Source: Spirogloea muscicola (Eukaryota > Streptophyta > Zygnematophyceae > Spirogloeales > Spirogloeaceae). Taken from it: a stretch of DNA of 20,105 bases. Shown here in pieces: positions 1 through 20,105 of the stretch (positions are counted from its first letter, which is position 1; each line of letters starts with the position of its first letter). The notes under the pieces were generated by a model. The model saw only the letters and a program-made list of their open reading frames with translations. It was not told where the DNA came from and searched no databases. The stretch spans positions 473,509 through 493,613 of the forward strand of contig WELB01000071.1 of assembly GCA_009602725.1 (NCBI GenBank). The letters are read 5' to 3'. The position numbers were made by a program, and so were the translations under genes.

Positions 1-119
1 CGCTGACGCAGGGGGCTGACGGCGCGCCCCGCTGGCGAGCGCCACGCGGCGCGGAGCTCCTGACGGCGGCGCGACGGCGGCGGGCTTTGGCCGGCCGTCG
101 CCGTTACGACGGAACGTGA

Positions 120-135
120 GGCGCCACGTGGCGCC
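120..135. promoter_or_regulatory. 16-bp palindrome with G-box core CACGTG
   Basis: GGCGCCACGTGGCGCC is identical to its reverse complement and is centred on CACGTG, the G-box/E-box core bound by bHLH and bZIP factors. It lies about 500 bp upstream of the RBM28-like start codon. The palindrome is seen directly. The regulatory role is inferred, and GC-rich DNA yields some palindromes by chance. Confidence 0.35.
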
Positions 136-316
136 GCGCGGGCGCCCCGCTCTCGGGGGCCCCCGGGAGCGGTGGTGAATGATTGTCGCACGGGGGGGTT
201 GAGGCGGAAGCGCGGCCCCCCGAAGCGCAGTGCGCCGGCGGCCCATGTCTCCTCGGGGATCACCCCACTGACGGGCGGACGGGGCCCCGCACACGGCCAC
301 TACGGGGAGCTCCGGC

Positions 317-332
317 GGGCATGTACATGCCC
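317..332. promoter_or_regulatory. 16-bp palindrome GGGCATGTACATGCCC
   Basis: GGGCATGTACATGCCC is a perfect inverted repeat with an AT-containing centre in otherwise GC-rich DNA, about 295 bp upstream of the RBM28-like start codon. It contains GTAC, the copper-response core known from Chlamydomonas CRR1 sites, but a 4-bp core alone is weak evidence. It could be a dimeric transcription-factor site or a small cruciform. Confidence 0.3.
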
Positions 333-627
333 CGGCGTCGTGGCGTCCTGATGGCGCTCCGCTTCCCCCCTCCCGTCGGCGGACCCCCCTGGGGCTCCCC
401 GGCGGCGGGCCCGTCCTCCAAGGCGCCGCCCCCCGCCGGATTAGTCCACCGAACCGACAGAATCGAATATTTGAAATCCGCCTCACCCCTCGCTGCTGGT
501 TCCCGGTAGCTCACCGGCCGGCCGATGTAAAACCCCCGGGGTTGGAGCGGGGCGGGGTCGAACCCCGGATCTCACTCCCCGGCGCTTCCCGCCACGGCAC
601 GGCTCCGCCCTGCACCTCCCCTCGGCC

Positions 628-3600
628 ATGGCTGCCGCCGCCGCCGCCGCCGAGGCGCCGCCGCGGCCGCAGGACGGCGCCGCAGCTGCCGGCGCGGAGC
701 TGGACCGCCGCACGGTGTTCGTGCGGAGCGTGGCGTTCGCCACCACCGAGGCAACGGTGCGCAGCGTCTATAGGCAGACTGCCGGTCGCCCGGCTGCCGC
801 TTTCGCTGGCTCGGCGAGAATGGGCGATGCTGTCGCGCGGCTTTCGTTCTCCCGCGCTCGTTGTGCTGATGGCCGCCCCCACGGCCGCCGACGCGCCTCG
901 TGCAGCTCGAGGAGGCCTTCGCCGAAGTGGGCCCTGTTCGCAAGTGCTTCCTGGTCCGCCAGAAAGGTGAGAGGTTTACCAGTACCGACGCCACAGCTTC
1001 CCAATGCTCCATCTGCTCGTCGCCGGCATCCGAGCTGCTGGTCGATACGATTCATGCGCTGGAGGATGGCGACTCACCGCCACCTTGCAATAGTTGGTTA
1101 CTCATTCCATAGTGAAGTGGCCGGTGTCATGCAGGTGCCAAGGACCACCGCGGCTTTGGTTTCGTCCAATTGTGGGTTTTCCAGCTTTGAGTGCAAGCTT
1201 GAGCAGATCTCAAAACGTACAGTCGCAGTCGTTGCATCCATGAGATACTTGCACAGAGTGCAAGCAAGGACGTCTGAAACCCTGACTGCAGCGCCCAACT
1301 GACTGGGAAGCTAATCCATGGCAGTCAACCTGCTCTGCCGGCAGTGCCCTGCCGGAGGATGCCGAGCGAGCTGCGCAGATCAAGCATGGTGCACTCTTGG
1401 ATGGCCGCAAGCTCAAGGTCGAGGTTGCCAAGAAGCGCGCCCCATTTGAGCAGCGCAGGCAGCAGAAGCAACCACGTATGCACCTTCCCATCTTTCTCAT
1501 TTGCAGATCACAGGGTATATGATGGCTTGTGTACTTGCTCATATTCCCATGCTGTGTGAGCCCTAGGGTTTTAAGGCCTTCGACCTCTCAGACCTGCAAG
1601 CTACTGACCTTGACTGTATATCTTACACCAAGTGTTGTGGACGATTCAGCTGCTGGCCAGGCAGCACAGGAGACATCACCAGACCTACCTGCTGGAAGTC
1701 TTGTAGCTGCCGTCCATTCTGATTCCAAGGAGAGTGGGCAAGCCAAGAAGGGCCAGGGTGAAGTAAACGGCAGGGCTGTTGCTGGCAAGACTGTTGAAGA
1801 AGGAAAAGGTGCGCTCTTATGTCTTGCACTCTTCAGTCTGTGTAAACGACCTTCAATAGCAGGACTAGCTATCCCTATGTGGCCATGTGTTCTCCAAGCT
1901 GCCCACTCCCTATCAAGTTGATGTAGCGGCTGTGCTGGTCTATGTATCATTGGGTTGCTATCGTGTATGAACATTAGTCAGTCAAAAGGTTAAAGCTAAG
2001 CTGCAAAGCTCAAACATCACTTTTGTTGTTTGAAGATGGTGCGAAGCCTGTGAAAAGGAAGAAGCTGAGCAATACAGCAAAGAAGAATGCTGCATCCCAG
2101 ATGACTTCTCAGAAGCAAAGGTATAATTACGCGATTGTGTGTCGCGTAGATCATCTGGTGCATATGATCCAGACTATTGTGCACTGCACCTTCTTCTGCT
2201 CGATGATGCTCCACTGGCGTCTTCGCATGTGGCATCACGATCATGAACAATTACGAGGATGGTTGCTTACAGTCCTGACTTTGTTGCCATATGTATAGTA
2301 GCCTTGATGTACTTTGGGGTAGTAGTGAGGGGTCCTCCTGCGAGCTTCTTGTGCAGACCAGCAAGAACGGTCGTCTTTGGTGGGATTATAAATGACTCTG
2401 TCCGTGGTGGACTGCTCAAGAAGGTGGAGGCCATTGGCTCGATTGAGGATGCCGCAAGGCTTATGCCAGAAGAGCAGCTGAAAAATTGTGGTACACCTCA
2501 ACTTCAAAGTTTGACTCTCCAGGTCTCCATGATGCTTATCCAGTAAGATAGAGCACGATTGTGCACAGATATCGGCTTGCATGGTCAAGTCAACAATGTC
2601 TAGTAAATGACTGTCTTTGCAGGACTCATCAAGGACGGCTGCAAGCCACCCGCTCTGGAGGTCGTCTTCTCGTCTGTCCAGCTAGCAACAAAGGCGGTGG
2701 AGTTGCTACATGGTCAGCAGTTTCAGGGTGCCACCATCTGGGCACGACAACTGGGAGGGGAGGTGAGATTTTTACTCCATCAATCTTGGTGCAGTCTACG
2801 CCACACGCTGCCTTCTTTAGTGGACAGTACTCGTCATGCAATGGCACAATTCTTTGTTGATGACCTTTATCCTGCTGCGCTCTTTCTCAGATGCTTGGGT
2901 TGCTCAATAATAATGACAGGGTGCAAAGTGGAGGAAGTGGAGAGTTATCGTCCGAAATTTACCGTTCCAGGTATCAACTAGTTGACAAATAGGAACCACT
3001 ACGCTCTCTCAAGCTCCAAAGGTGCAGCAAGTGAGCTTAGTGCTGCACTATAACATCTGACAACATTGGTGATATGCAGATCAAAGAGGCAGAGCTGGCC
3101 AGCCTATTCTCAAGAGCTGGCACCGTCCGAGAGGTCACCATTCCGGGCATAGCAGACAACAAGTGAGACTCAGGCGCCAGTCATTTCTGCTGAGAGTGCC
3201 CATATAGAGGATGCTCCAAACAGTGGCTCTGAGGTCTACATGACTCACCTTGACTGGAGCTTGATTGTAGCAGTTGCTTTCTAGTCATGTGTACCCTCTT
3301 ATGCTTTGTTCGAAGGGCAATTATTGTCAGGTTTGCTGACGAGCTCGCAATGCATGCTGCATGCTTGCAGAGTTCGTGGATTCGCGTTTGTTGCCTATCA
3401 CAATAAAGCTGCTGCAGAAAAGGCAAGTGGTGCACACAAATAAGTTGCTGGATACCAACACCTCCAGAAGTGCATGATGGTGCAGACATATCATTTTCTA
3501 CTCAATAAGTTCTTGGATGGTCACAGTTGCATACGTCAACTTGGACCAGGTACATTGATGTACTTGCTAGTTGTTGCGGCTAGATGACGTACTTCTGTGA

Positions 3601-6600
3601 TTTTGTGTGAAAGACAGGCAGTGACTCTACTCAATGGACTTGAAATACATAAGCGACCCGTGGCAGTTGACTGGGCTGTGCCCAAGGCAAAGTACGAAGT
3701 TGTGGCTGCACAACTCCAAGCAACCGCAGGTGAGAGCTTGAACACTTCAAGAATGTCATGGAAGCTCTATGTATGTGTGGCTGCCAGATCCGCAAGCCAT
3801 GAATTTGAATTTGGGTACTCTGGACAGAGCAAATGGAGGACATTGGAGACACTATGGATTCAGATGGTGATGGAACTTACGAAAGCATTGAAGAGAATGT
3901 CGACATGAGTGAAGGCGGAAAGACAGCAACTCCCGCAGTAACAGGAAGTCCTCAAGCTCAGTCGAGAACCTCAGTGGGGGAGGTCAGTCAAGGAAGCAGG
4001 ATGCCAGGCCCGGACGTTGATGCCAAGGAGGAGAGCAGGAAGTCAGATGCGCAGCTGGCATCTCAACACAGGCAGGACGTTCCAGAGAACGAAGACGAAG
4101 TAGTCAGGAAGGTACTATTGAAGGTTCTGTCAAGTCAGACTGCCGCTGCTCCTCAACTTGCAAGTGGCCTGTCCACTAGCTCCGCAAGCTTTGGCGAAGG
4201 CGGAGCACGTGCTGAGCAGACGGATGAGGAGGAAGCAGAGGAAGCAGAGGAAGGGGGGAGTCAAGGAGAAGGAGACGTTGATGAGATCGAGGACCTGTCA
4301 AGGATGTCCAACCCAGCTAGTACTTCACGGATGGAGAATTCTGGAGACGAAGTCACAGGTGCCACAATCTTTGTGAGACAGTTGCCGGCAGGTCTGAAAG
4401 TTGCAGACCTCCGGGCTTGCTTCTCGGCTTACGGCGAAGTCAGATCCTGTCGTCTGGTGTTGCATCCAGTGACAAGGTATTCTACTGTCCACATAAGCTT
4501 CTGCAGTACGCCACTTGATGGAAAATGTACTCATGGAAGCCTCTGCAGTAGGTCACTCGGTTGTGTTCCTCGAATGGTGGTGCATGAATGTACCCTGCAG
4601 CTGTGCAGTCATAGTCCATGAGGTTCTTTGAGGTACTGAGCCCTCAAAGGGATTTACTGGCATCTGTCTGGTGAACAGGAGACCGAAGGGGACTGCATTC
4701 CTCGAATTCATAAGACATGAGGATGCAGAGGCGGCTGTGCAGGCTTGTAAGAAGCAAGGGGTGTACATAATGGGCAAGGCGCTGTCAGTTGACATAGCAG
4801 TAGACAAGCAAGAGGCTCGTACATTGGCCAGATCGAACAGCCAACATGAGCGAGAGCGTGACCGGCGAAATCTGTATCTGCTTGAGGTGTATGCTCATTC
4901 TCCTGCATGCTTTAGTGCAAGGCGCTCTTGACTGCTAGCCACTCTTCTGACATCCTCGTGATTTTTGTGCTGACTTGTGTTCCGCAATGTTTGGGGTTCC
5001 AGGCTGAACTGCACCTCATCCTTCTGAGCATGACAGGAGGGCCTCATCAGGGATGGGTCTGCTGCTGGACGGGAGATGTCAAAACACGATACTCTCAAAC
5101 GCGACAGGTAAGGCAGATGTCACTCAGGCGTGAATAGTTTTGTGCAAGGAGCGCCCATTCTCAATTGTTGCCTGACTGGAAATGTGAAATATCTGAGACT
5201 GTATGATCACCGTGTGTGTTCATGGCATCGCAGACCCAGCTGCAACTCCTGTGTGTATGTCGCTTGCAGACTAGGGACTGAGAAGCAGTTGAAGTTGGCA
5301 AGCCCAAACTTCTATGTATCACCGACACGGTTACTTGTTCACAACATCCCCAAGAACATGACAGAGAAAGAATTGAGGATTCTCTTTCTCGACGCTGTGA
5401 AGAGTCGCGCAACCAAGCAAAGCCCAACAATTAAGCAGGTCAGCCTCTATTTCTTACAATTTACAGCTATCTACGTGTTGCTTGACCTGCAGGTTGAGAA
5501 GCAAGGGAGTTGAACACTCACACATACTTGAAAGCTTTCTCTATTGTTTTCCACCAAGCTGTGGAGTGTCTCTTGTCTGTGAAGGTCAAGATACTTGCGG
5601 ACAGCAGTAAGAAGGATGCGAAAGGGGCACCCAGGTCTCGGGGTGCTGGTTTTGTGGAATTTGTTGAGCACCAGCACGCACTTGTAGCTCTCAGGGTACT
5701 CAACAACAATCCAGGTACCAGTACCTTCGTGTATTTAGCATCCAGTATCTTTGCTTGTTTTAGCATCCAGGTTGCCTAGCCCTGCTTTCAAGATGTGCCC
5801 TGGTTTCGAGTTGTGGCAATTCTACATCATTCTACAATGCTGCTGCAATGTGGAAGCTGATAGCAACCCCGTGCCTGCTATGTACAGAAATATTTGGGCC
5901 AGAGTGCAGGCCAATCATAGAGTTTGCGATCGAGAATAGTCTTGTTCTGAAGCAACGTGCAACACTGAAGGCAAAGGCTAAACTGGCTGAGGCAAACAAA
6001 ACGAAGGTGGTGCAAGCTGCCTCCAGCAATCATCTGCAAGAGCACCCATTGCATCATGGGAAAAGTACTTCTCACAAGGTTGTGAAGGGAATACAACACT
6101 CTGAGAGGGCAACAGGCAGAGGCTTTCGTGAAAACAATGCAGGCAAGAGGAAGAGGCAGGAGAATATAGAAGTGCCACTAGCAACGTTGTCAAAAGGAGT
6201 AACGAGCACACAAGCCAGTCTGCCAGCTGCAGCTGTTACGACAAAGGTCAGCACGCCTGATGGATTGGCTGCTGGACAGCATGCCAACCATGGGAAGAAG
6301 GGGCAGACCAAGACAAGGAGGGAGTCCGTGACGGAGGTTGCTGATGCCAAGAAGGTGAGCCTGGCGCCATTCCTGGATAGCATTTCAGTCGAATATTTGG
6401 TTGCATCTCTTGACTTTGACCCTGACGATGTTATCAAAGTGTGGCGCTTTGATGCATACTCCTAGTGATCCTGCATATACCTCGTATTTAGATTGCCCCC
6501 TCAGGCTCAGAAGTACGAACAAAGATTGACTGGCTCACATGGACTTGGACTGAGTGCAGCTGGTACCTAGAGTGTCATCAAGGGTAGGTAAGCAACAGCC

Positions 6601-8375: not shown

Positions 8376-8416
8376 CGAGGCCGCCCAACCCCGGCCTGGC
8401 CAGCCCAGCGCCACAT

Positions 8417-8439
8417 CCGCCGCCGCCGCCGCCGCCGCC
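8417..8439. repeat. CCG trinucleotide repeat
   Basis: About seven and a half uninterrupted CCG units lie just upstream of the DGAT2-like start codon, probably in the 5' UTR. Such tracts vary in length between strains and are hard to assemble; an N follows nearby at 8619. Confidence 0.8.
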
Positions 8440-8457
8440 TGCGGTCATGCTGCCGCC

Positions 8458-11400
8458 ATGGCGGCGGCGCCTACATCTGCAGCCAGGTGCCGCCTCCGGC
8501 GCTCTTACTCGACGGCATCAGCTTAGCAAGTAAAGTAAAATCAGGGCATGTCATAAGTTTCAGAAGTAGAGTGAAATCAAATTCCAGCACTGCCTGGCTG
8601 CCGCTAGTCTGGCGCTGANCGCGCGCTCCTCGCGCCTGGCGCTCGGCAGCGGCGGCCTCCTGCTCGCCGGTGAGCCCTCGCGATCGGCCCCCTCCCGGCG
8701 GCGGCGCTGGCCGTCGTGGCGGAGACGGGGAGCTGACGACGTGACATGGTCCTCCTTGGCCAGCGCCGTTGACGCACGGCGTGGCCGGGTACTGGCGGCA
8801 CGGCGCCCGGGGGTGGCGCTTCTGGCAGCCCTTCCGCGGCGGCGCGCGTTTCGTGGCGGCGCAGGGCCTCGCCTGGCTCTTCTTCGGCCTCATGCTGCTG
8901 CCCTGGGCGCGCTTCCTCGCCTCCCCCCCCGGCGCCCCCGACGCCCTGCCCGCCCGCACGCTGCTCCTCATCGGCACCTTCGGCGTCCTCTCCGAGGCCA
9001 TGGTGAGCTACAGGTCGCGGGCGCCGCCGCCCCGACTCGCGCTTTGCGCTTTTGGGCAAGCCCATGATGCCACTCTCACACTCCTGAGGAAATATGAAGT
9101 GGGCTGTCCGAAAAACATGAACTTGGCTTTCTGAGGAGCAGGCCCTGACGTTCCTTTCTCATCACAACCTGCATTCGATGCTGGGCGTCGTGTATCAGGT
9201 GGCGTTCTCGCTGCTCCTCTTCTCCCCAGCTGAGACCTCGCAAGGCCCGCCCAAGTCCTCCAGTGGGCTGGCATCCTCGGGAAATGGGGAGGCTTCCCCC
9301 AGCTCTGTCCTCTCGCCAGGACCACCCAGGGAGGCGGGCAGCGTGAAGCGGGTGCTGTTCCGGCCGAGGCCGGCAGATGGCGCTGATAAGCCCAAAGACG
9401 AGACGACAACCTTCAGGCTTCTCATGGGCATAAACCTCGTGCTGGCCACCGTCTCCTGCACCCTTGCGGCAGCCTGCGACTTTTACAGCCACAGGCCTGC
9501 CCCAAGCACCAGCAAGAGCCCAGACGAGCTCTCAGCTCCCAGCTTACCGGTATGATGCCATCCTCATGGCTGTTTGTTGGCCAAAGCAAAGCTTGTGTTC
9601 TGCCACATGCGCAAGGCTTGCACAATCACAGCCTAGCTCTGAAGAGCAAGCTTGTAGCATCCTCCTGTGATCTCGCTGTGATGACTCAATATGCACTATC
9701 CACTTCCCCAGGATGGCTGGCCAGGCCTGAGCGGCACAGCCACGGCAGGGGCAGCCTTGGCATGTGCCCTGTGCTTGGCAGTTGCTGCCTTCCTTACGCA
9801 CGGTGTTGGTGGGAAGCTGCGGTATAAGCATCTTGCCTACGGATTCTGGCAACCCTTTGCAGGCGGAGTTCTTTTTGTTGTCATACAGGTCAGTGAGTGT
9901 TGTCATTCAGTCAACTCCAGTGCTGTGCTGCAAAGAGGTTATCAGACTAGCCGGCCTCATTGTGTTACAGACCCATTAGCTACTTGCTAACGAGGTACAT
10001 AGCTGTGTGTGTTCAGGCCATTGCATGGTCGCTAGTTGGAGTGGCCTTGCTTGTCTTCAGCTCAGCCGCATATGTGGCATTCTTTTTAGCAGAGAAGTCG
10101 TTTGTGCTGGGCTCGGGCATGCTTGCATCTGCAGGCATGAGTGGACTGGCAGCAGAGATACTTCTGATGGCCTCTCTTGTTGCCTACCGAGCCCCTACTA
10201 GAGCAGATTATGAGGTGAGTGTCTTATGATTGTTGGACAGCAGAACATGGTCAAAGTAGACGAGTGTCCAGCTCATTCACTTCGAGCCGCTTAGTCTATG
10301 TGGATAATGACAACATTGGCAACTCAGTCGTGACTTTTACAACCTGCAGGTAGCTGAGTCTCTCCCAGGTGGCTCAGCTGAGCCAGCTGATGGGCCTGAA
10401 CCCACCAGCGTCATTTCGACGCCGATGCTAGAGCAACATGGCATTACAGCAGAGCACGCTAGAGAAGCAAAGATTAAGCACGAGCCATCTCCTCTCTTAC
10501 TTAGGATGCCATCTCTTCGGCTACGGAGAGTTTACAATTATGCAGTGGAGGTTGTGGAACCTGCATACTGGGACAAACACTCTGAGCAGGTTGGTGAGAA
10601 CATACACCGACCTTGTTAGTATGTATTGCCATGATTTGATGTTGTTAGCTTTAGCAGGTTGCTTGTCAATGACTCACTCCCTGTTCCTGTGGATGACAGG
10701 TAGCGAGTCTTGGGCCTTGGCAGCTGAAGGAATCTAGTATCAGAACATATCTCTGGTGGGCATTTATTCGGGCCAGGTCATTGGCCGTATTCAGTATGAT
10801 TTATGCAAATCACTTCTTCCTCATTAGCCTGCTCCTTGCACCTGCACTGCTACTTCCAGCACTCAAGGCCATACACGTCTACACCTTGGCAAGTACATTC
10901 TATCTCAGCACATACAGGGGCTCTCCCCATAAGACAGGGAGGAAGAAGTGGCCTTGGCTGGCCGACATGTGAGTTATTGGCTGCAATTTGCCTTTGCAGC
11001 TCACTGTAGCAGAAATAGATCAGGTCATTGTACTTGGCATCAGCACCTTATGCAGCAAGCCTGCCAGGCTGAGGTGCTTCCTGATGCACAAGTCATTGCT
11101 GCCCTTCAGAGTAAGCAAGCTTCTTGAGGAAGCTTCGGTCTTACACTTCGGAGGCATGAAAATTGTCCGCGAATCCAGCGAGCCTCTAGATGCTTCTACA
11201 CGATATGTTTTTGGTTATCACGTGAGTGCTTACCCGACACTACCCACTGAGAAAGTACTTGCATGATAGGCACTGCCCTGGTAGTAAAATCTCAAAGCCA
11301 GAAGATATATTGTTCTAAGCTCAACCTGACCGTGTCCACCTCCTGTCCTCGGTGTCTTTCCAGCCTCACGGACTATTCCCAGCAACGATCGCGTGGTTCT

Positions 11401-12467
11401 CGCTCACCAGAGCGTGGAAGACTCTATTTGCGGGAATCCAGCCAGTTGTCTTGGCTGCTTCTGTCATCTTCTATGTCCCCATCCTGCGGGAGGTTGTGAT
11501 GTGGTCAGGTGCGAGAGAAGTGTCTCGCACTGTATTTAAGCACTCCCTTGAGAACGAGGGAGCAGTGATGATGTGCCCAGGTGGCCAGGTAGGCGTGCAG
11601 CCTGACTCTAGCTGGCATCAGGTCAAGGTCAGAGACCTGGCATACATGCCCGTTGCTCGCAGTGCTGTGCAGAGGTTACTCCCGAATCATTGCCTGGTTG
11701 GGCTGTATCGTCGCTGTCAACATGTTTAAGAGGCGAATTACACTTATGTAAGTGCCGTGCACTGTGCAGTCTGAGCTTGCCTACCATCGAAAGGGTCAGA
11801 CCAAGAAGATTGTACTGTGCGCTCGCAAGAAGGGCTTCATTCGACTGGCTGCAGAGGCAGGAGCCTCGCTGGTTCCAGTATTTTGCTTTGGCGAGTCACG
11901 CTTGTTTGACAATCTCCTCGAGTGGCCCCAATTACAGGTATGCAGTGGAGGGTGACTCAAGCCTGGTCTATGCTTTGAAGGCTCCCGTTTGCAGTGATTT
12001 TAGCAAGGGCTGTCGAGCTACCAGCCTCATCTGCACTGTCACATTGATGTCAGTCAAGGCTGTCGTTCCAATCTTAGGTATACCACACGGTATGACAGTC
12101 CGTGGAAGCATGCAGCCTCCCATGGGGGATTCAATGTTCATTGGTGTGAAGCCCATGCAAATGCCTGACAAGGCTTTGTGACTGTACTTATATTGTGCAG
12201 CGATTTGCCTACAAGCGAATTGGCTTCCCAATACCCTTTCTGCCAATTGGTTATGGGGGTGTGGCTCCCCTTCCTCGTGCAGTTCCGGTTAGCATTGTGG
12301 TGGGAGTGCCAATCCCTACTGCGCACCTTGGCCGGAGCCCCTCGGAAGAGGATGTGGAGGCCTTGCGGCAAACTTACTACTGTGCACTGGTGGAGCTCTT
12401 TGAGCGGCACAAAGCGGCACATGGGTTTGAGGGCGTGGACCTCATTCTGATGACAGGAGTGCGGTAG
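8458..12467 (+). CDS. DGAT2: DGAT2-family acyltransferase with duplicated N-terminal membrane module (12 exons, about 786 aa)
   Basis: The C-terminal half is a diacylglycerol/monoacylglycerol acyltransferase of the DGAT2 family, ER enzymes that acylate diacylglycerol to triacylglycerol. Exons: 8458-8486, 8608-8669, 8764-9002, 9199-9549, 9712-9888, 10017-10214, 10350-10589, 10700-10892, 11010-11221, 11364-11588, 11770-11937, 12201-12467; 2361 nt, stop TAG. Family marks are YVFGYHPHG (catalytic HPHG, about aa 567-570, split between exons 9 and 10), FYVPILREVVM, MCPGGQSEL, LVPVFCFGES and FPIPFLPIGYGG. A hydrophobic segment near aa 460-490 corresponds to the usual DGAT2 anchor. The first about 350 residues are not standard: two related membrane units carry LTHGV...FWQPF.GG at aa 33-57 and 255-279. 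Family members are usually 300-400 aa, so this is about twice that. Start and exon 2 are tentative (N at 8619), as is the acceptor of exon 9; the rest is firm. Which acyl acceptor it uses cannot be read from sequence. Confidence 0.85.
8608..9234 (+). other. Membrane module, copy 1, in the DGAT2-like protein
   Basis: Exons 2-4 encode a hydrophobic stretch, then LTHGVAGYWRHG...RFWQPFRGG, a second helix (FVAAQGLAWLFFGLMLL) and a third (LLLIGTFGVLSEAMVAFSLL). Order and spacing match copy 2 in exons 5-6. In the 25 residues from LTHGV to the GG after FWQPF the two copies align without a gap and share 14 identities. I do not recognise the module as a named domain. Confidence 0.75.
9712..10214 (+). 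other. Membrane module, copy 2, in the DGAT2-like protein
   Basis: Exons 5 and 6 encode a helix (ALACALCLAVAAFL), LTHGVGGKLRYK...GFWQPFAGG, a second helix (FVVIQAIAWSLVGVALLVF) and a third (MLASAGMSGLAAEILLMA). This repeats copy 1 at an offset of 222 residues. An intron sits after FVVIQ in this copy but not at the matching place in copy 1. The linker between the copies is Ser/Pro-rich and poorly structured. Confidence 0.75.
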
Positions 12468-13094
12468 AGCACGCTCTCCTGGAGAACATGAGCATCGCAC
12501 TCTGAACGAGCTTGCACATCGGGTTCGTCACCTGATGCCGAGGCTGCACACACAGGAGTTCTCAGTTGATTTATACTGAGGCACATTGATTGCAGCGGCA
12601 GTATTTCTGCGTTGCCCCGCTTACTGGCCCCAGCAACAGAGCCTCGTGGTGGGGTAGTCGCGGCGGACGTTCGGTGGGGCCGTCGTGGACGGGGGGCCGT
12701 CGCGACTTTACCCACTGTTTTACACCAGCAGGCGGCCCAGGCAGGCGGGCACACCGGGGTTGGGATTGTCCTTTTTGGGACTGGCGGGTGCGCCACGTCT
12801 CGGCGGCCGCGTCGCGCGCGTGGCCGGCCCACCGTCTGGCGGCGGGCCTTTCGCGAAGGGCGGGGTGTGGCACCCGTGCCCATCTAACTTCCCCGTCAAA
12901 CCTCCACTAAGAAGCGCCCAGGCCTGTGGCTCCGCCACCGTCGTCATAAACACCCTCTGTATGTACTAGGCTGGCTTTTACAGCCGCTCATTTGACGTCC
13001 GCAGTGGCATTCGTCTCGGTCAGCCGTCAGCACCACCTCCCAGAGCTTCGCGCGCCGCCGCTGCTGCAGGCCGCCGCGCCAAGCCGCGCCCGCC
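12468..13094. other. Intergenic stretch with an orphan GC-rich block
   Basis: The first part, about 130 bp, is presumably the 3' UTR of the DGAT2-like gene. A sharply GC-rich block follows at about 12640-12880, open in several frames on both strands, which is what such composition gives by chance; none of the translations resembles a known family. The last 130 bp are the upstream region of the SOUL gene and contain the TGACGTCCGCAG element. Confidence 0.5.
12993..13004 (+). promoter_or_regulatory. TGACGTCCGCAG element upstream of the SOUL gene
   Basis: This is a second copy of the 12-mer found at 8364-8375, here 102 bp upstream of the ATG at 13095. Similar spacing in two neighbouring but unrelated genes suggests a shared promoter element of the TGACGTC bZIP class. 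The recurrence is seen in the sequence; the function is inferred. Confidence 0.3.
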
Positions 13095-15393
13095 ATGGCG
13101 GCCGTCGCATCGGCGCNGCGCCGGCCCTGGCCTCCCCCGCCGCTCGCTCTCGCGGGGAGCGGCGCCACGGTGCGCCGGCTCTCGTGCGCAGCTCGCTGGC
13201 GGACCGCACGTACATGACGGCCGAGCAGGCGCTCACGTCCGCGGGCGTGGACACCAGCGACCCGCGCCTGGCGCTCGTCCTCGCCCTGGGCTCCCAGGCC
13301 GTGCGGCAGTCTGAGCGAGGTGCCCTGCTTGCATGACCTCCTCTCTGCTTCGGTTAGGGAGATCGGCGCCATCAGCGATCCGCAATTGTCGCGCGACTAA
13401 GCTCTTTCCTTGGCAGGACTCGGGCCGGTTGCCAATCTCTCCTTAATATTGCTCGATCTGGCTGTCGACCTCTGCAGCTGTGCAGGGAGCTGCATCAGAG
13501 GTCTCAAAGTACGTCAAGCCGCGCAGGAACGACGGTCAGAGCCTGGAGGAGGCTCTCATGGCTGGTACGCCAATGCCAAAGCAAGCTGGACTGAGATACG
13601 AAATGTTTTGGAAGCAATTCAGCTGCTCACCTCAAAGCCATGGTGGCATCTTGTACGTGGGGCCGAGTACCTGGTATCCAGATAGCTGGTCAAAGTGCAA
13701 TTTGCAGACTTCATCAGCACCTGCACCTTGAAGTCCTTGGGGACTTTGACACGTCGCTGCTTGCAGTCTGTGAACAACGATTGTGATTGTCTGTTGGCTC
13801 AATATGTAGTTCCTGATTTGGAGACAATACCCTCGAAAGTGGTCAAGAAGATGGCTGACTATGAGATCAGGGAAAATGATGTGAGCACTTTGTCGTACCT
13901 CCTCCAGGACCTTTGGGGCAGATGATGATTAAGCGCTAGGCTTTGTCAAAATCAATGAGGGTTTACCTACTACAGCGTGTGCTACTTAAGATTGTAGCTG
14001 TAGAATGTTCTCAAGAGTACGTGAGGAAAAGTAAGCTTCTGTACCGCAGAGTTTGTTGACACAGGCCCATGGTGGTGTGCGCAGTCTTACATGGTTGCTG
14101 AGACGGAGATGCCAAGCACTCGGGGCTTTGATTTTTACGGAGCCTCGCAAGGTTTCAACATACTGGCTGGTTATATCTTTGGCAAGGTACAATGTTAGGC
14201 AGATTGCTTTGACCAATCCATAGCTTGACTTGAAGACTTCAGAACACGAAAGTTGGTATCACGACCAATCCTCACGAGGACTGCCTTGTTGGTCATGTTG
14301 ACAGAATGCCAAGCGGGAAGAGATGCAGATGACCACCCCAGTGTTCACGCAGAAGGGAAGAGCCAGCAAAAAGGGAGAGATGATGGAGATGACAACCCCT
14401 GTTGTTACTCAGAAGGTGAGGCTTCTGACGAAGCCCAGCCATTACAAGTAACTCTCAGAACCCTGACTTCAAGGAGCCATCAATCCACACCTTTGCTTCA
14501 GCTATTTGAGAGGCTGACATGTTGCACATGTTGCCTGTGACATGTTGCAAGCTGCAGGCTGGCAATGTTGACAGATGGAAGATGTCATTTGTCTTGCCGT
14601 CTAAATACTCCAAGGAGACTGTGCCTGTCCCGATTGATACTCGTGTATCCATTCACGAGGTCCCTCCACAAACAGTTGCAGTGGTTGCATTCTCAGGCAT
14701 GCCACTGAGCTCTCTGTCAGTTGCTTGAATATGCCTGCCCATTGTTATAGCACATGAGTTGCGGGTCATCAAGCTGCAACCTGGCCATACGTGTAAGATA
14801 GTCAGGAAATGATGGTGCAGGACTTTGTGACTGTTGCATTGCTTGCCCTATAAGTTGTCGGGCATGACAGGCTTTTTGACAGACAAAATCACTGTGAATG
14901 ACAGGCTTCGTGACTGATGAAGAGGTTGAGCGTCGCACTACACGCTTGCGGGCATCTTTGGCGAGAGACGGTGTGGCTGTGAAGGATGGAGCATGTGCAC
15001 AAGTTTCTCAGGTCAGTGATCTGGATTGCAGCACGTGACTGACCCCAGCATGTTATTACTGTAGAGCACATTGTCCTTCGACTTCCATCCAAGTTGTCTT
15101 TTGCTGGCTGCCATTGTTTCTGTGTAGAATCGCTTGGGCACTTAGGTTTCTAAGAAGATCAAGTTGATGTCGGAAGTCATGAGCATGTAAAGGCAAGGTT
15201 CCTACTTCCTTAGAAATTTTTGAAAGCCAGATTTTGTGCAAGTCTATCACTGATGCCTTCACAACAAGGAATGTTTCGTACTCACTATCCTGCTACTGTT
15301 TGGCTGTAACAGTTTAACCCACCTTTCACCCTGCCCTTCATGCGGCGAAACGAGGTTGCCCTGGAGGTTGAGTGGACAGGGGCTGGCAGCTAG
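13095..15393 (+). CDS. SOUL-family heme-binding protein, probably plastid-targeted (9 exons, about 307 aa)
   Basis: SOUL proteins bind heme or other tetrapyrroles. This one follows the chloroplast protein At3g10130 of Arabidopsis (about 309 aa, reported from plastoglobules) from the mature N-terminus to the end. Exons: 13095-13319, 13478-13564, 13810-13880, 14085-14186, 14243-14251, 14314-14415, 14558-14696, 14905-15011, 15313-15393. Landmarks are [65 protein letters not shown] with KNTK, two copies of the MTTPV motif ([20 protein letters not shown]), [26 protein letters not shown] and [18 protein letters not shown] 13095 gives an Ala-rich leader like a transit peptide, but it is one base out of frame with the rest of exon 1; the N at 13117 lies between, and one missing base there would restore both the frame and the family length. 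The intron after exon 7 has a GC donor. It is convergent with the arginine decarboxylase gene. Confidence 0.88.
14243..14251 (+). other. 9-nt microexon of the SOUL gene
   Basis: The nine bases AACACGAAA encode Asn-Thr-Lys between an acceptor (CTTCAG) and a donor (GTTGGT). They supply the NT of the conserved GKNT segment just before the MTTPV motif; without them two conserved residues are missing. Reading on through the following 62 nt shifts the frame and meets a stop. Flanking introns are 56 and 62 nt. Confidence 0.75.
14697..14904 (+). other. Intron of the SOUL gene with GC donor and duplicated acceptor
   Basis: The protein needs ...VAFSG followed by FVTDEE, which places the splice after TCAG with a GC donor (CAG|GCATGC) and the acceptor ATGACAG. 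No GT site gives the required phase. The 11-mer ATGACAGGCTT spanning the acceptor also occurs 34 bp upstream at 14864-14874, giving a decoy acceptor. The donor does not match the best GC consensus, so a sequence error at 14698 is an alternative. Confidence 0.55.
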
Positions 15394-16080
15394 GGGCCAG
15401 CTCAAGTGGCCATTGCCGATAGGCAAAGAGCATGTCAAGACGACCGAGGCTTGCAATTGCAACAGCTTTATGAGTATAGAACGGACAAGCGTGCTTGTGC
15501 CGGACATGAAAACAAATGGACTCGCCAGTCAGTAAAATCAGAGCTTATGTATTGATTTGGAAAGATATGGTTTTGACTAGTGACATACACAACATGTATT
15601 TATGCAAAGTTGCAGCATGACTACTGACGATCAATGGATTTGATGCAACTTTCATTGCACTGGTGAACCCCTACTTACTCGCAGTAATAATAACCTCATG
15701 TCAGAATACATGCAAGATTCCATGAATTGAATGCTCCAATGTGGTGCACTTTGGAGTACATGGTCTTCCAAGCATTTCCAAAAAGAATTCATCTACACCC
15801 TGCTGTGAGGGCTTGAATGGAGAAGAATGGGCAAGCTCTTTGAGCTGCCAAAAAATGAATATCATGCACCTGCAAAATGAATGATATATATGCACCTTGT
15901 GTACACTGCCTAGCATCAGCAACTTGGAGACAAGATATCTAACTGCAAAAAGAATGATATATATGCACCTTGTGTACACTGCCTAGCATCAGCAACTTGG
16001 AGACAAGATATCTAATCATCGCCTCGCTTGTGATGAAAGTGAGCCCACGGCATACTCTGTGCTGCCTGATGTATTAGAAC
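15394..16080. other. Region between convergent genes (3' UTRs)
   Basis: It separates the stop of the SOUL gene (+) from the stop of the arginine decarboxylase gene (-) and must hold both 3' UTRs and both poly(A) sites. It is AT-rich and without credible coding potential. No clear AATAAA or TGTAA signal stands out. A 73-bp tandem duplication lies at its decarboxylase end. Confidence 0.6.
15870..16015. repeat. 73-bp tandem duplication
   Basis: Copies 15870-15942 and 15943-16015 match base for base except one substitution (T at 15878, A at 15951). Each runs from CTGCAAAA through GATATATATGCACC to GACAAGATATCTAA. A shorter related piece (AAAATGAATATCATGCACC) precedes the first copy at about 15852-15870. 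The near identity suggests a recent duplication or an assembly artefact. It lies in the probable 3' UTR of the arginine decarboxylase gene. Confidence 0.95.
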
Positions 16081-19000
16081 TCAATTATCAAAGTAGGTGT
16101 ATGAACGCAGGCACTCCTGGAAATTAGCGAGAAGATTTTGTGCAGCATCAAGAGGAAGTTGGTCAACTGTCACTGCAGTCTCGGCAGCTTGGCGAAGACG
16201 TTCCATCATATCGCCTCCCTTATGCTGCACCATGCAAAAAGTTGTGAGCAACCACCTACAGGACCTAGGCGTTACTTAGTGCACTACAGCTTCATATGTA
16301 TGTCCTAGTATCTTATCTGAGCACGTCTTCTTGAACAGGTAACATGCAAATTGTTGACTTACGTGAGCAGTGCAGAGCACTTCCTCCATGTTCTGCCCCT
16401 TGACCATATGCTCAATGAAGAACCTGCTCTTGTATCTGTGGCCGCTCCCGCCGTTCTCAACACTGCCATTGGGCCGGGATCGCACATGCACTACATTTGT
16501 GCTGCCAAAGAGGTTGTGCAGACCCCCCATTGTCTCCTGCAAAATAGCACTAGGAGCAATCATGTGAGGGCTTCACTCCAATCAAAAAAAGTGATGGACA
16601 CCCAGAATATGACAAAGAGCAAGAGAAGCACCCCAAGCAATGCTACCAAAGAGAGGAACAACCAGCCATTGTAGATAGACAGAATGTTCTTGCCTGGTAT
16701 ACGCCCCCGAGGAAGAGGCCAAGGTAGTAAGGCTTTGCCGGGAGGAGCTGGTGGAGCCGCAGGGTGTCGCTGCCGCACGACATGGGCGAGGAGGCCGAGG
16801 GCGGGCCGTGCCCAATGAAGCGGTGGATGCGGCCGTCCGAGTCGCAGGTCAGGTCTGCGAGCGTGGCATGCACCAGCGGCTCCTCGTGCAGGCGCTGCAG
16901 GGGGACGATGGGGAAGACCTGGTTGATTGCCCACGCGTCCGGCACCGAGCGGAACACCGACAGATTGATGTGATACACCGCCGCCATGGACTTGCGGAGG
17001 GCAGCGAGCTCCTCGGGTAGCTCCCCTGCCTCCCAAGCGTAAAGCAGCACACGGTGGCATACCACCTGCTAATAAACGACAACGTCGCAGTCAATGACTG
17101 CGTTTAGCTGTTAAGTATCATACAATGTGTGAAGTTGCTATTGACAATCTTGCACTCATCTGCCAAGTTGCCGCCAGCATGCACTCTCCTCACCAACTTG
17201 GTGCATCTAGTCGAGCGATTGGAAGTGGTCATTCAGTGAGCAGCAGTCCGTGCCTGAAAGAGGGACTCAACCCGGGCGCGCTGCTCCAGGGTCAGGCATC
17301 CGAGGCGGAAGAGCTGCGCTGCTTCTGCCCGGAACTGCTTGGCATCGTTGAAGGCCTCCTGGAAGTTCCCCGGGTTCATGTAGTTGTGCACCTCCTCAAA
17401 GGTGTGCAGCAAGTATTCCCCTGCAGTGAGCTGCGACGCATGGCCGTTCGTGGTACCACCAGCAGCTTGTCCATTCCCAACGACTTTCGAAGAGTCTGAA
17501 TCCATGAGGACCTTCCCGGGCGGTGACATGGTGTTGAGGTTTTCTAGCGCCCTCTCCTCAGAGTTCTGGGTGACGCCAAGCACATCAAATACCAGGACGC
17601 TGTGGTGCGACGCCAGTGCCCGACCCGACTCCGACAGGATGACGGGCTGCCGCACACCCTTCACGGTGCACGCGTCCAGGACTGCCGCGACCACGTCGTT
17701 CGCATAGTTCTGTCCTCAGCGATGCACAACGGCTTATCAGCAGAGGTTGCCCTATATTACAGGGTAATCCATGGACGTCCAGATTATGCAGTATCAAGAG
17801 CCACATGTGGTATATATAACGTTCACTTTGCAACTCAGGGGGTGTGCAAGGTTGTCAGCTACCTGCATTGTGTAGTTGGTGGACGCCCCAGAGCGGCTCT
17901 TGGTTCCATCATAGTCAACACCAAGGCCCCCTCCGACATCACAATACCCCTACAAGGAGCCAGACGTCTCCTGACTTCAGAGCCAATTGCCATGAACACA
18001 AGGTTGATGTAGAGACAGCGCGATACTTATGTGACCATTAAGTAGGCAGCAAAGTCGGATGCTTCTGCAAAGCAGAAATTGAGATGTACAAATGTGTGGT
18101 GAATCCAAAAGTTGCAACTTGATCTTAAAGTTGACGGTTGTGCAGTGACAACCCCTACAAAGCCGAAATACGACGCACATGCACGTTACAACTACGTTTG
18201 GGCCCCCAGGCTGAAGGCTGCGTACCATCTGTGCGCCCATCAGAACAAGCTCGCAGTAGAGGTTGCTGGCTTCCCGCATAGCCTCCTTGATGATGGCAAT
18301 GGACGGAATTTGCGAGCCGATGTGGAAGTGGAGGAGCTGCAGGCAGTCCAGCATCCCTGCCTGCCATACAATGCACCAATGTGTCCTGACTTTGCAGAAG
18401 GGCTCTGACATTCTGGAACTTTAGAGGTAGCAAAACATAGTGAGCGAGCACATCTATTCCAAGACTGCGGTGCAAGAGGAGTGCAAAGAGATTCACAAAG
18501 CTCTACAAAACCTTGCAAATTAATCACAGTGGCTGAGGGGCACTGGCAGGACCCTTAGTAGATTATTGTGCCATACCTCCCGGAGAGCGTACACCACTTG
18601 CACGATCTCAGTGACGGTGAGGCCGAATTTCCCCTGGTCACCGGACGTGTCCCCCCAGTGCCCATTGTGGCGCGTGCTGAGCTTTGCGCGCACGCCCACC
18701 ACGGGTCGTATGCCCAGCCGCCGGGCTACGTCAAGCACCAGATCCAGCTCCTTCATCTGCCAAGCAGTGCATCGCACCCACTGTGAGGTCTCTTCTGCTG
18801 GTAGGAAGAGAAGTGTTTGCACAACGTACTAAGAGACTGATGCTTCTGCAGAATCGCAGACAGATTAGATTTGTGCACTCTTGACATTGTGTCTTTATCT
18901 CTCCCTCATTCAGAGAGGGACAAGTAGCCTCCAGCAACGGGCCAAGCGGCCAGGGTGCCCTTTGAAGCGTGTACCTGCTCTAAGACAAGGACTCCGTTTA

Positions 19001-20105
19001 TCCCCAGCTGCCTCGCAAGAAGCACGCTCTCAATGTAAACACGGTCCTGGGCCAAGGCAGGGAGGACCAAGGCTGTGAGTCCTTCTGACATGACATGAGT
19101 AATCCACGCATGCTTCGAGCTGAAGCAGTGAGCCCTGATGGGCCTCACAGCAGCAGGAACTGCATATTCACGTACAGCCACGCGACTGTAGCGTCAGAGA
19201 AAGCACGTGTAGGCGTGTGTTAAATAAGGCAAGGCATCGAGCACCCCGGCCGGAAGGACCCTCACCTTGTAACCATTGCAGATGAGGAGGGCGTCCGGAG
19301 AGTCGAGGAGGTTGGCGATGGCAATCAGGATCTCCGGCTTGGACCCAGCCTCGAGGCCGAAGCGGAACTGGCGGCCATACTCCACGATGTCCTCCACCAG
19401 GTATCTGTCGTGGTTGCTCTTGACCGGGAAGACGCCCTGAAAGTGACTCTGAGGCAGAGGGAAGCCGTATGTATCTCAGGGCACTGAGGTCAATAGAGCT
19501 CCGCAAGCCCCGGTGGCGACCAAGGCGACAACTGTGGAGCCGGCCGGTGTGGGCAAGACAACAGCTGTCTTCCCGTCACCTCGTAGCCGTAGCTCCGGAT
19601 GGCGGAGTCGAAGCAGCGCTGCAGCTGCCCGATGCGGTGCTGCACGATGTCGGGGAAGCGGACGATCATGGGCAGCTGCACGCCGCGCCTGCGCAGCGCC
19701 TCCACGAGCTCCAGCAGGCTGAGCGTGTCTGCACGCCGACCAACACGAGCACCGCAGCGCTGCATGAGAAAGCTTCGCCCGGATCGAGCTGGAGCTGCGA
19801 TCGCCCAAAACCCACAAAGCCCACAAAGCCCACAAGGCTCGGAACCACAAGGCAGAGCCTCGGGATGCCACAAAGCGTGGCGGCAGAGCCACGAGATGGG
19901 GCGCAGGCTATGGGGGCGGCACCGTCGCCGGAGCCGTCGGGGCAGACGGCCATGCCGCCGTCGGCGTCGACGGAGAAGTAGGGGGCGCCCCAGCCGTCGA
20001 CGCGGTAGAGGGCGGCACCGTCCTGGGGCCCCCACGGCGGGTCGCGGACGTCGGCGGGCGCCGGCTGCTGCTCCGGCGCTGGCGCTCGGGCGGCCGCGGC
20101 GGCCG
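16081..20105 (-). CDS. ADC: Biosynthetic arginine decarboxylase, plant type (11 exons in window, 5' end missing)
   Basis: This PLP enzyme converts L-arginine to agmatine and CO2, the first step of putrescine synthesis in plants and bacteria. Exons in transcript order: 20105-19923, 19728-19580, 19448-19266, 19046-18975, 18756-18577, 18360-18226, 17949-17863, 17709-17254, 17065-16694, 16536-16363, 16224-16081; about 711 codons, near the full plant length. Marks are [54 protein letters not shown] (Lys of PVKSN binds PLP), [53 protein letters not shown] (phosphate-binding glycines), [40 protein letters not shown] (catalytic Cys from the partner subunit) and [12 protein letters not shown]. No ATG precedes the conserved part in exon 1, so the start and any plastid transit peptide lie beyond 20105. 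The introns after exons 8 and 9 have GC donors. The least certain border is the start of the last exon. Confidence 0.92.
16537..16693 (-). other. GC-AG intron of the arginine decarboxylase gene (after exon 9)
   Basis: On the minus strand the donor is CAG|GCAAGA and the acceptor TTTTGCAG. Using it gives [18 protein letters not shown], the same length as the plant [18 protein letters not shown] pattern. A GT donor nine bases upstream would also keep phase 0 but would delete three residues of this conserved stretch. Confidence 0.7.
17066..17253 (-). other. GC-AG intron of the arginine decarboxylase gene (after exon 8)
   Basis: Exon 8 ends ...RVESLFQ at CAG|GCACGG and exon 9 begins [11 protein letters not shown] after TTAGCAG, both in phase 0. 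Between the end of the conserved reading and the in-frame stop there is no GT, so a GC donor is needed. The donor matches the GC consensus less well than the one after exon 9. Confidence 0.55.
19811..19837. repeat. Three tandem 9-bp units (CCCACAAAG)
   Basis: CCCACAAAG occurs twice and is followed by CCCACAAGG. The array is in the first in-window intron of the arginine decarboxylase gene (19729-19922). It is a minor satellite with no evident function. Confidence 0.85.

Follow-up and report, generated by a model that had tools for sequence, protein, structure and literature searches.

We analyzed a stretch of DNA of 20,105 nt from Spirogloea muscicola (contig WELB01000071.1, positions 473,509–493,613), which is referred to below as the window. 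The reading that we prefer, with a probability of about 0.6, is that the window contains one eukaryotic gene for a polytopic acyltransferase of the DGAT2 family, probably belonging to Clade IV, with two diverged hydrophobic units of ca. 95 residues in its N-terminal region; together with a single helix between them, these units would follow a 3+1+3 plan and act as a membrane platform for the enzyme.

Gene Model and Coding Evidence

The DNA of the window is eukaryotic and intron-rich. From the three forward frames, we built by hand a model on the forward strand (8458–12467) that comprises 12 exons and codes for 778 aa plus a stop codon. Exons 1–4 are situated at positions 8458–8486, 8608–8669, 8764–9002, and 9199–9549; exons 5–8 at 9712–9888, 10017–10214, 10350–10589, and 10700–10968; and exons 9–12 at 11110–11221, 11364–11588, 11770–11937, and 12201–12467. 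The membrane region that an earlier note on this DNA had delimited at 8608–10214 corresponds to exons 2–6 of this model.

All 11 introns of the model are of the GT-AG type and a single frame is open throughout, although this score is obtained partly by construction because we set the exon boundaries manually and took the frame into account in doing so. As an independent check of the frame, a codon table was trained on exons 8–12 and applied to exons 1–7, which had not been used for training. The modeled frame ranked first of three in the seven untrained exons, with a small margin in exons 2 and 4 and with just nine codons in exon 1; for exons 1–4 it is the rank alone that is informative, because their absolute coding scores with this C-terminal codon table were negative. 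The proposed start codon is the ATG at 8458–8460 of the forward strand, within GCCGCCATGG, whose context resembles that of a good eukaryotic start; another ATG, in a different frame, is found just 5′ of it at 8447. Residue 14 is ambiguous in the translation because of one N in exon 2.

Duplication of a Membrane Unit

The N-terminal region contains an internal duplication. In the spliced model, the LTHGV blocks at 8769 and 9793 correspond to residues 33 and 255, an offset of 222 residues, and 14 of the 25 residues of the LTHGV-FWQPF block are identical without gaps. The tandem units described in the earlier note were therefore recovered, and the similarity extended past the block: residues 27–118 (unit 1; 8657–9222, forward strand, exons 2–4) and residues 249–343 (unit 2; 9775–10187, forward strand, exons 5–6), of ca. 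95 residues each, gave a Smith-Waterman alignment of 98 columns, with a score of 129 and 36.7 % identity. For comparison, three kinds of shuffles were done, with 5000 sequences each. The highest scores were 73 when the whole sequence was shuffled, 85 when shuffling was done within 10-residue windows, which keep the hydrophobic pattern, and 63 within hydrophobic and other classes, 129 being reached by none of the 15,000 shuffles. The duplication is thus real, since the alignment score is far above that of every shuffle. A pairwise BLASTP of unit 1 against unit 2 gave an E-value of 2.2e-15, or of 1.0e-12, over a shorter stretch of 47 residues, with composition adjustment. A profile built from both copies recovered the two of them and no further one elsewhere in the protein.

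At the DNA level, no direct repeat of at least 20 nt matched the two units, and the 25-codon block was identical between copies at 43 of 75 nt. The introns inside the units lie in codon 31 and after residue 110 in unit 1, and after residue 286 in unit 2, with none of these three positions being common to both. These features rule out a recent duplication or an assembly artifact and, to judge from the sequence, indicate that the duplication is probably old.

Predicted Membrane Topology

The Kyte-Doolittle scale identified three helices in each unit, one helix between the units, and the region of the DGAT2 hairpin at residues ca. 460–505. Both copies show the order helix, LTHGV...FWQPF.GG, helix, helix that had been proposed for them. 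Between the copies there is a hydrophilic linker and a single hydrophobic helix (residues 183–203; 9415–9477, forward strand, exon 4), the latter absent from the earlier note and evident with both hydropathy scales. A hydrophilic linker exon (10350–10589, forward strand) connects the membrane module with the DGAT2 part, and the following exon (10700–10968, forward strand) contains the hydrophobic segment, at residues ca. 460–505, with which a DGAT2 is expected to begin. The count of seven helices is provisional, because two of them (helix 1 in unit 1 and helix 3 in unit 2) did not stand out when the Wimley-White octanol scale was used, whereas parts of the catalytic domain did.

Hydropathy thus suggests that the N-terminal region is organized as 3+1+3 helices, where both units would have the same orientation because the extra helix offsets the flip expected of two adjacent three-helix units. 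With helix ends set by hand, the two LTHGV-FWQPF loops contain 4 and 3 K+R residues and the two linkers 8 and 14, vs. 1, 1, 2, and 1 on the opposite side, which includes the N-terminus and the other loops. Because of this loop charge, and in view of the hydropathy profile, we infer that the enzyme domain is on the cytosolic side, as are the linkers and both signature loops. A structure model of exon 3 (79 residues, with exons 5 and 6 supplied as an alignment) was helical, with low confidence (mean pLDDT 70.4, pTM 0.41), and its second helix begins within FWQPF.

The DGAT2 Domain

The last 346 residues contain a complete DGAT2-type domain, which agrees with the acyltransferase call made in the earlier note. 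The catalytic domain (PF03982; 11141–12431, forward strand, residues 533–767) was matched with an E-value of 1.6e-41 and 142.6 bits, against a cut-off of 22, over profile positions 46–289 of 297; a PF03982 search matched the one genome included (1/1) and none of 14 controls. The translation contains the motifs YHPHGLF, VPILRE, PGGQSE, which spans an exon junction, RKGFIRLA, and LVPVFCFGE (i.e., HPHG, P..R, GG..E, RKGF, and VP...FG), which correspond to the PHG, PR, GG..E, RGF, and VPFG blocks of DGAT2. DGAT2 enzymes also carry an N-terminal YF block, which was not evident in the translation of the model. A search of PDB sequences with the DGAT2 part found nothing close, with one unrelated entry at an E-value of 1.3. 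Membership in PF03982 leaves the acyl acceptor unspecified.

Searches for Relatives of the Module and of the Enzyme

The membrane unit did not match any Pfam or NCBIfam family above cut-off, nor was there a convincing match among PDB sequences, in line with the previous remark that no named domain was known with this motif. The best Pfam match of the module was UPF0114 (PF03350), which aligned to unit 2 with an E-value of 0.012 and 16.3 bits, against a cut-off of 23.1. The matches of the unit to UPF0114, TMEM132_C, TANGO6_N, and DUF families were all weak and below cut-off, and were taken as due to composition or chance.

Searches in viral contigs produced 15 pattern matches with the alignment of the two units, 15 with unit 2 alone and two with the DGAT2 part, and 34 were obtained in prokaryote genome contigs with the two-unit alignment; there were no relatives among them. 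A DNA pattern for FWQPF.GG was found in three stretches from viral contigs and in 110 from prokaryote genome contigs. In tblastn comparisons of these 113 stretches with the N- and C-terminal halves of the protein, the best E-value was 0.054, for a short alignment over the motif used for the selection, and was attributed to chance.

In cyanobacteria, the membrane unit matched three of 386 genomes at E ≤ 0.01, when 3.9 (386 × 0.01) are expected by chance. Two of these matches are an identical stretch in two genomes, which resembles chlorophyll-antenna proteins, and the third covers hydrophobic sequence only. A cyanobacterial ancestor of the unit was therefore rejected, because the number of matches is about that due to chance and those inspected were unconvincing. 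Of 194 cyanobacterial genomes, 23 had weak matches to the DGAT2 part at E ≤ 0.001 (best, 4.6e-7), with alignments limited to the acyltransferase core (query residues 123–306 of 346), and these would correspond to generic acyltransferases. The searches, which covered viral and prokaryote sequences and do not bear on algae, speak against a close bacterial source of the unit.

Genomic Context of the Gene

The intron at 10215–10349, situated at the junction between the module and the enzyme, is GT-AG and preserves the frame. Blocks of high GC content (0.65–0.79) are found at the apparent 5′ ends of genes in the window (1–900, 8401–9000, 12601–13500, and 19501–20100, the last one belonging to a gene on the reverse strand that may begin beyond the window), and GC drops to ca. 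0.45–0.55 downstream of the apparent starts. Positions 10201–10800, with a GC content of 0.47–0.50, lack such a block, and no second gene start is therefore indicated between the two halves. Gene model, frame and composition favor that the membrane module and the DGAT2 belong to one gene, and the fusion claimed in the earlier note is supported at the level of the gene model.

Upstream, at ca. 630–6460 of the forward strand, there is a gene that presumably codes for an RBM28/Nop4-like protein, with multiple RNA recognition motifs (both of the pieces tested matched PF00076). Directly downstream, at ca. 13095–15010 of the forward strand, there is a gene for a SOUL haem-binding protein (PF04832, E-value 1.8e-39 with hand-joined pieces). 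It is followed by two head-to-tail copies of 73 bp (15870–16015), 99 % identical, and by a reverse-strand arginine decarboxylase gene (ca. 16600–20105) that matched the PF17810 helical bundle with an E-value of 1.6e-12; two further hand-cut pieces of this gene had no Pfam match at E 0.01, and the gene may be truncated at its 5′ end where the window stops. In Chlamydomonas, SOUL2 and a Clade IV DGAT2 gene appear in one table of genes responding to light and singlet oxygen (PMC4067076), although the pairing of SOUL and DGAT2 in that table and in the window is probably a coincidence.

Polytopic DGAT2s in the Literature

Bagnato et al. (2017; PMC5343412) divided DGAT2 into four clades, of which Clade IV, uncharacterized, contains single members from most green algae as well as SAR and excavate sequences. 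According to the main text of that paper, TMHMM predicts six helices for the Clade IV member of C. reinhardtii (Cre08.g377300), seven for that of B. prasinos, eight for V. carteri, and nine for C. variabilis, whereas DGAT2s outside this clade have two or three on average, with a few sequences above three; helices of the window protein were counted by hydropathy. Most Clade IV members, including Cre08.g377300, have a changed VPFG block (PMC5343412). Polytopic DGAT2s are therefore already published, and the previous assertion that DGAT2s usually have a single short membrane anchor was only partly right, in view of the six to nine helices predicted for these four members of Clade IV. In other reports, five DGAT2s from Haematococcus have two to three helices (PMC7788937), Auxenochlorella DGAT2b loses its activity upon removal of the N-terminal helices, unlike mouse DGAT2 (PMC10120206), and “~ 9” helices are stated for DGATs of Chlorella zofingiensis, the enzyme being unspecified in the text (PMC6371474).

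The main text of PMC5343412 does not mention a duplication, an N-terminal module or a fusion in Clade IV, the word “repeat” being used there in an unrelated context. Likewise, no description of a doubled unit in a DGAT2 was found among the matches listed in a survey of the literature by titles and abstract openings; an internal duplication in a DGAT2 is thus apparently undescribed.

As for expression, Table 9 of PMC4067076, which uses v4 gene IDs, includes Cre08.g377300 as induced in singlet-oxygen acclimation (log2 1.09) and upon transfer from darkness into light (log2 3.27). If the gene assignment holds, this hints at a role of Clade IV in lipid metabolism under photo-stress, which might extend to the window gene by analogy.

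Alternative Readings

The model could have wrongly joined two neighboring genes, one for a membrane protein (exons 1–6) and another for a separate DGAT2 (exons 7–12). The C-terminal 346 aa would alone make a normal enzyme, considering the average of two or three helices of DGAT2s outside Clade IV (PMC5343412), and there are in-frame ATG codons in exon 7. A scan for the TGTAA signal is compatible with two genes, with no copy in the forward strand between 4750 and 11747, yet there is none just after 12467 either, so that it was uninformative; equally so was a promoter scan, which is of bacterial type and inapplicable to a eukaryote. We consider two genes unlikely, however, in view of the frame-keeping GT-AG intron, of a junction without the GC-rich block that marks the apparent gene starts of the window, and of the existence of polytopic DGAT2s in green algae (PMC5343412).

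With a single gene, the question is to which lineage the enzyme belongs. The protein could derive from another DGAT2 lineage, or be a DGAT2-like synthase of wax, sterol or pigment esters, having gained its polytopic N-terminus independently of Clade IV; the latitude of PF03982 as to the acceptor allows for this. The VPFG block is unchanged in the protein, vs. the majority of Clade IV, and a few sequences from other clades exceed three helices (PMC5343412), but the total number of helices falls within the range of Clade IV, a clade with single members in most green algae. We regard this origin as a real possibility, although not the expected one. Eukaryotic SWEETs consist of two parallel three-helix units and one joining helix, and hydropathy and loop charge agree with such a 3+1+3 parallel plan, raising the idea that the module is a divergent member of a SWEET/PQ-loop-type transporter family and that the protein couples transport to acylation. 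This is very improbable, because no Pfam match to these families was obtained at E-values of up to 5 or 10, the best Pfam match was UPF0114, below cut-off, and there was no match to PDB sequences.

Proposed Function and Comparison with Known Systems

Under the preferred reading of a single, polytopic DGAT2-family gene, the enzyme would use acyl-CoA to acylate an acceptor lipid, either diacylglycerol or a different lipid alcohol, at the cytosolic face of a membrane surface. The paired units would constitute a fixed membrane platform, in which FWQPF, at the base of helix 2, might be an interface motif that keeps the enzyme on one particular membrane, and the seven-helix module may help the acceptor lipid to reach the active site. 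It is doubtful, but conceivable, that the module represents an undescribed pseudo-symmetric 3+1+3 domain of seven helices, with the signature LTHGV...FWQPF.GG, fused to DGAT2 and conserved in the polytopic algal clade as a lipid-access path or a lipid-binding scaffold. Oil-making DGAT2s are usually depicted with a short hairpin that carries the catalytic domain, and the branch with a large membrane region, known in green algae, is apparently unstudied. The doubled unit and its 3+1+3 reading supply a concrete design for this branch that can be tested as to which membrane it occupies, which lipid is acylated, and whether the module is needed.

The protein resembles Clade IV members in combining a DGAT2-type domain with many helices, ca. 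seven plus the DGAT2 hairpin, near the numbers for V. carteri and C. variabilis, and differs from most of them in retaining VPVFCFG, where the clade has a changed VPFG block (PMC5343412). By its helix count it is a probable member of Clade IV, and the intact VPFG block does not decide against this because, in the main text of that paper, replacement of VPFG is a majority feature and not a strict requirement. The similarity to UPF0114 amounts to a weak alignment with unit 2, below cut-off and with unit 1 unmatched, and SWEET/PQ-loop proteins share with the module the 3+1+3 plan, if the hydropathy reading holds, but no Pfam or PDB sequence match. Ordinary DGAT2/DGTT enzymes (PF03982) have the full catalytic domain and motifs that are also found in the window protein; in contrast with their two or three helices (PMC5343412), the latter has an extra region of 430 residues.
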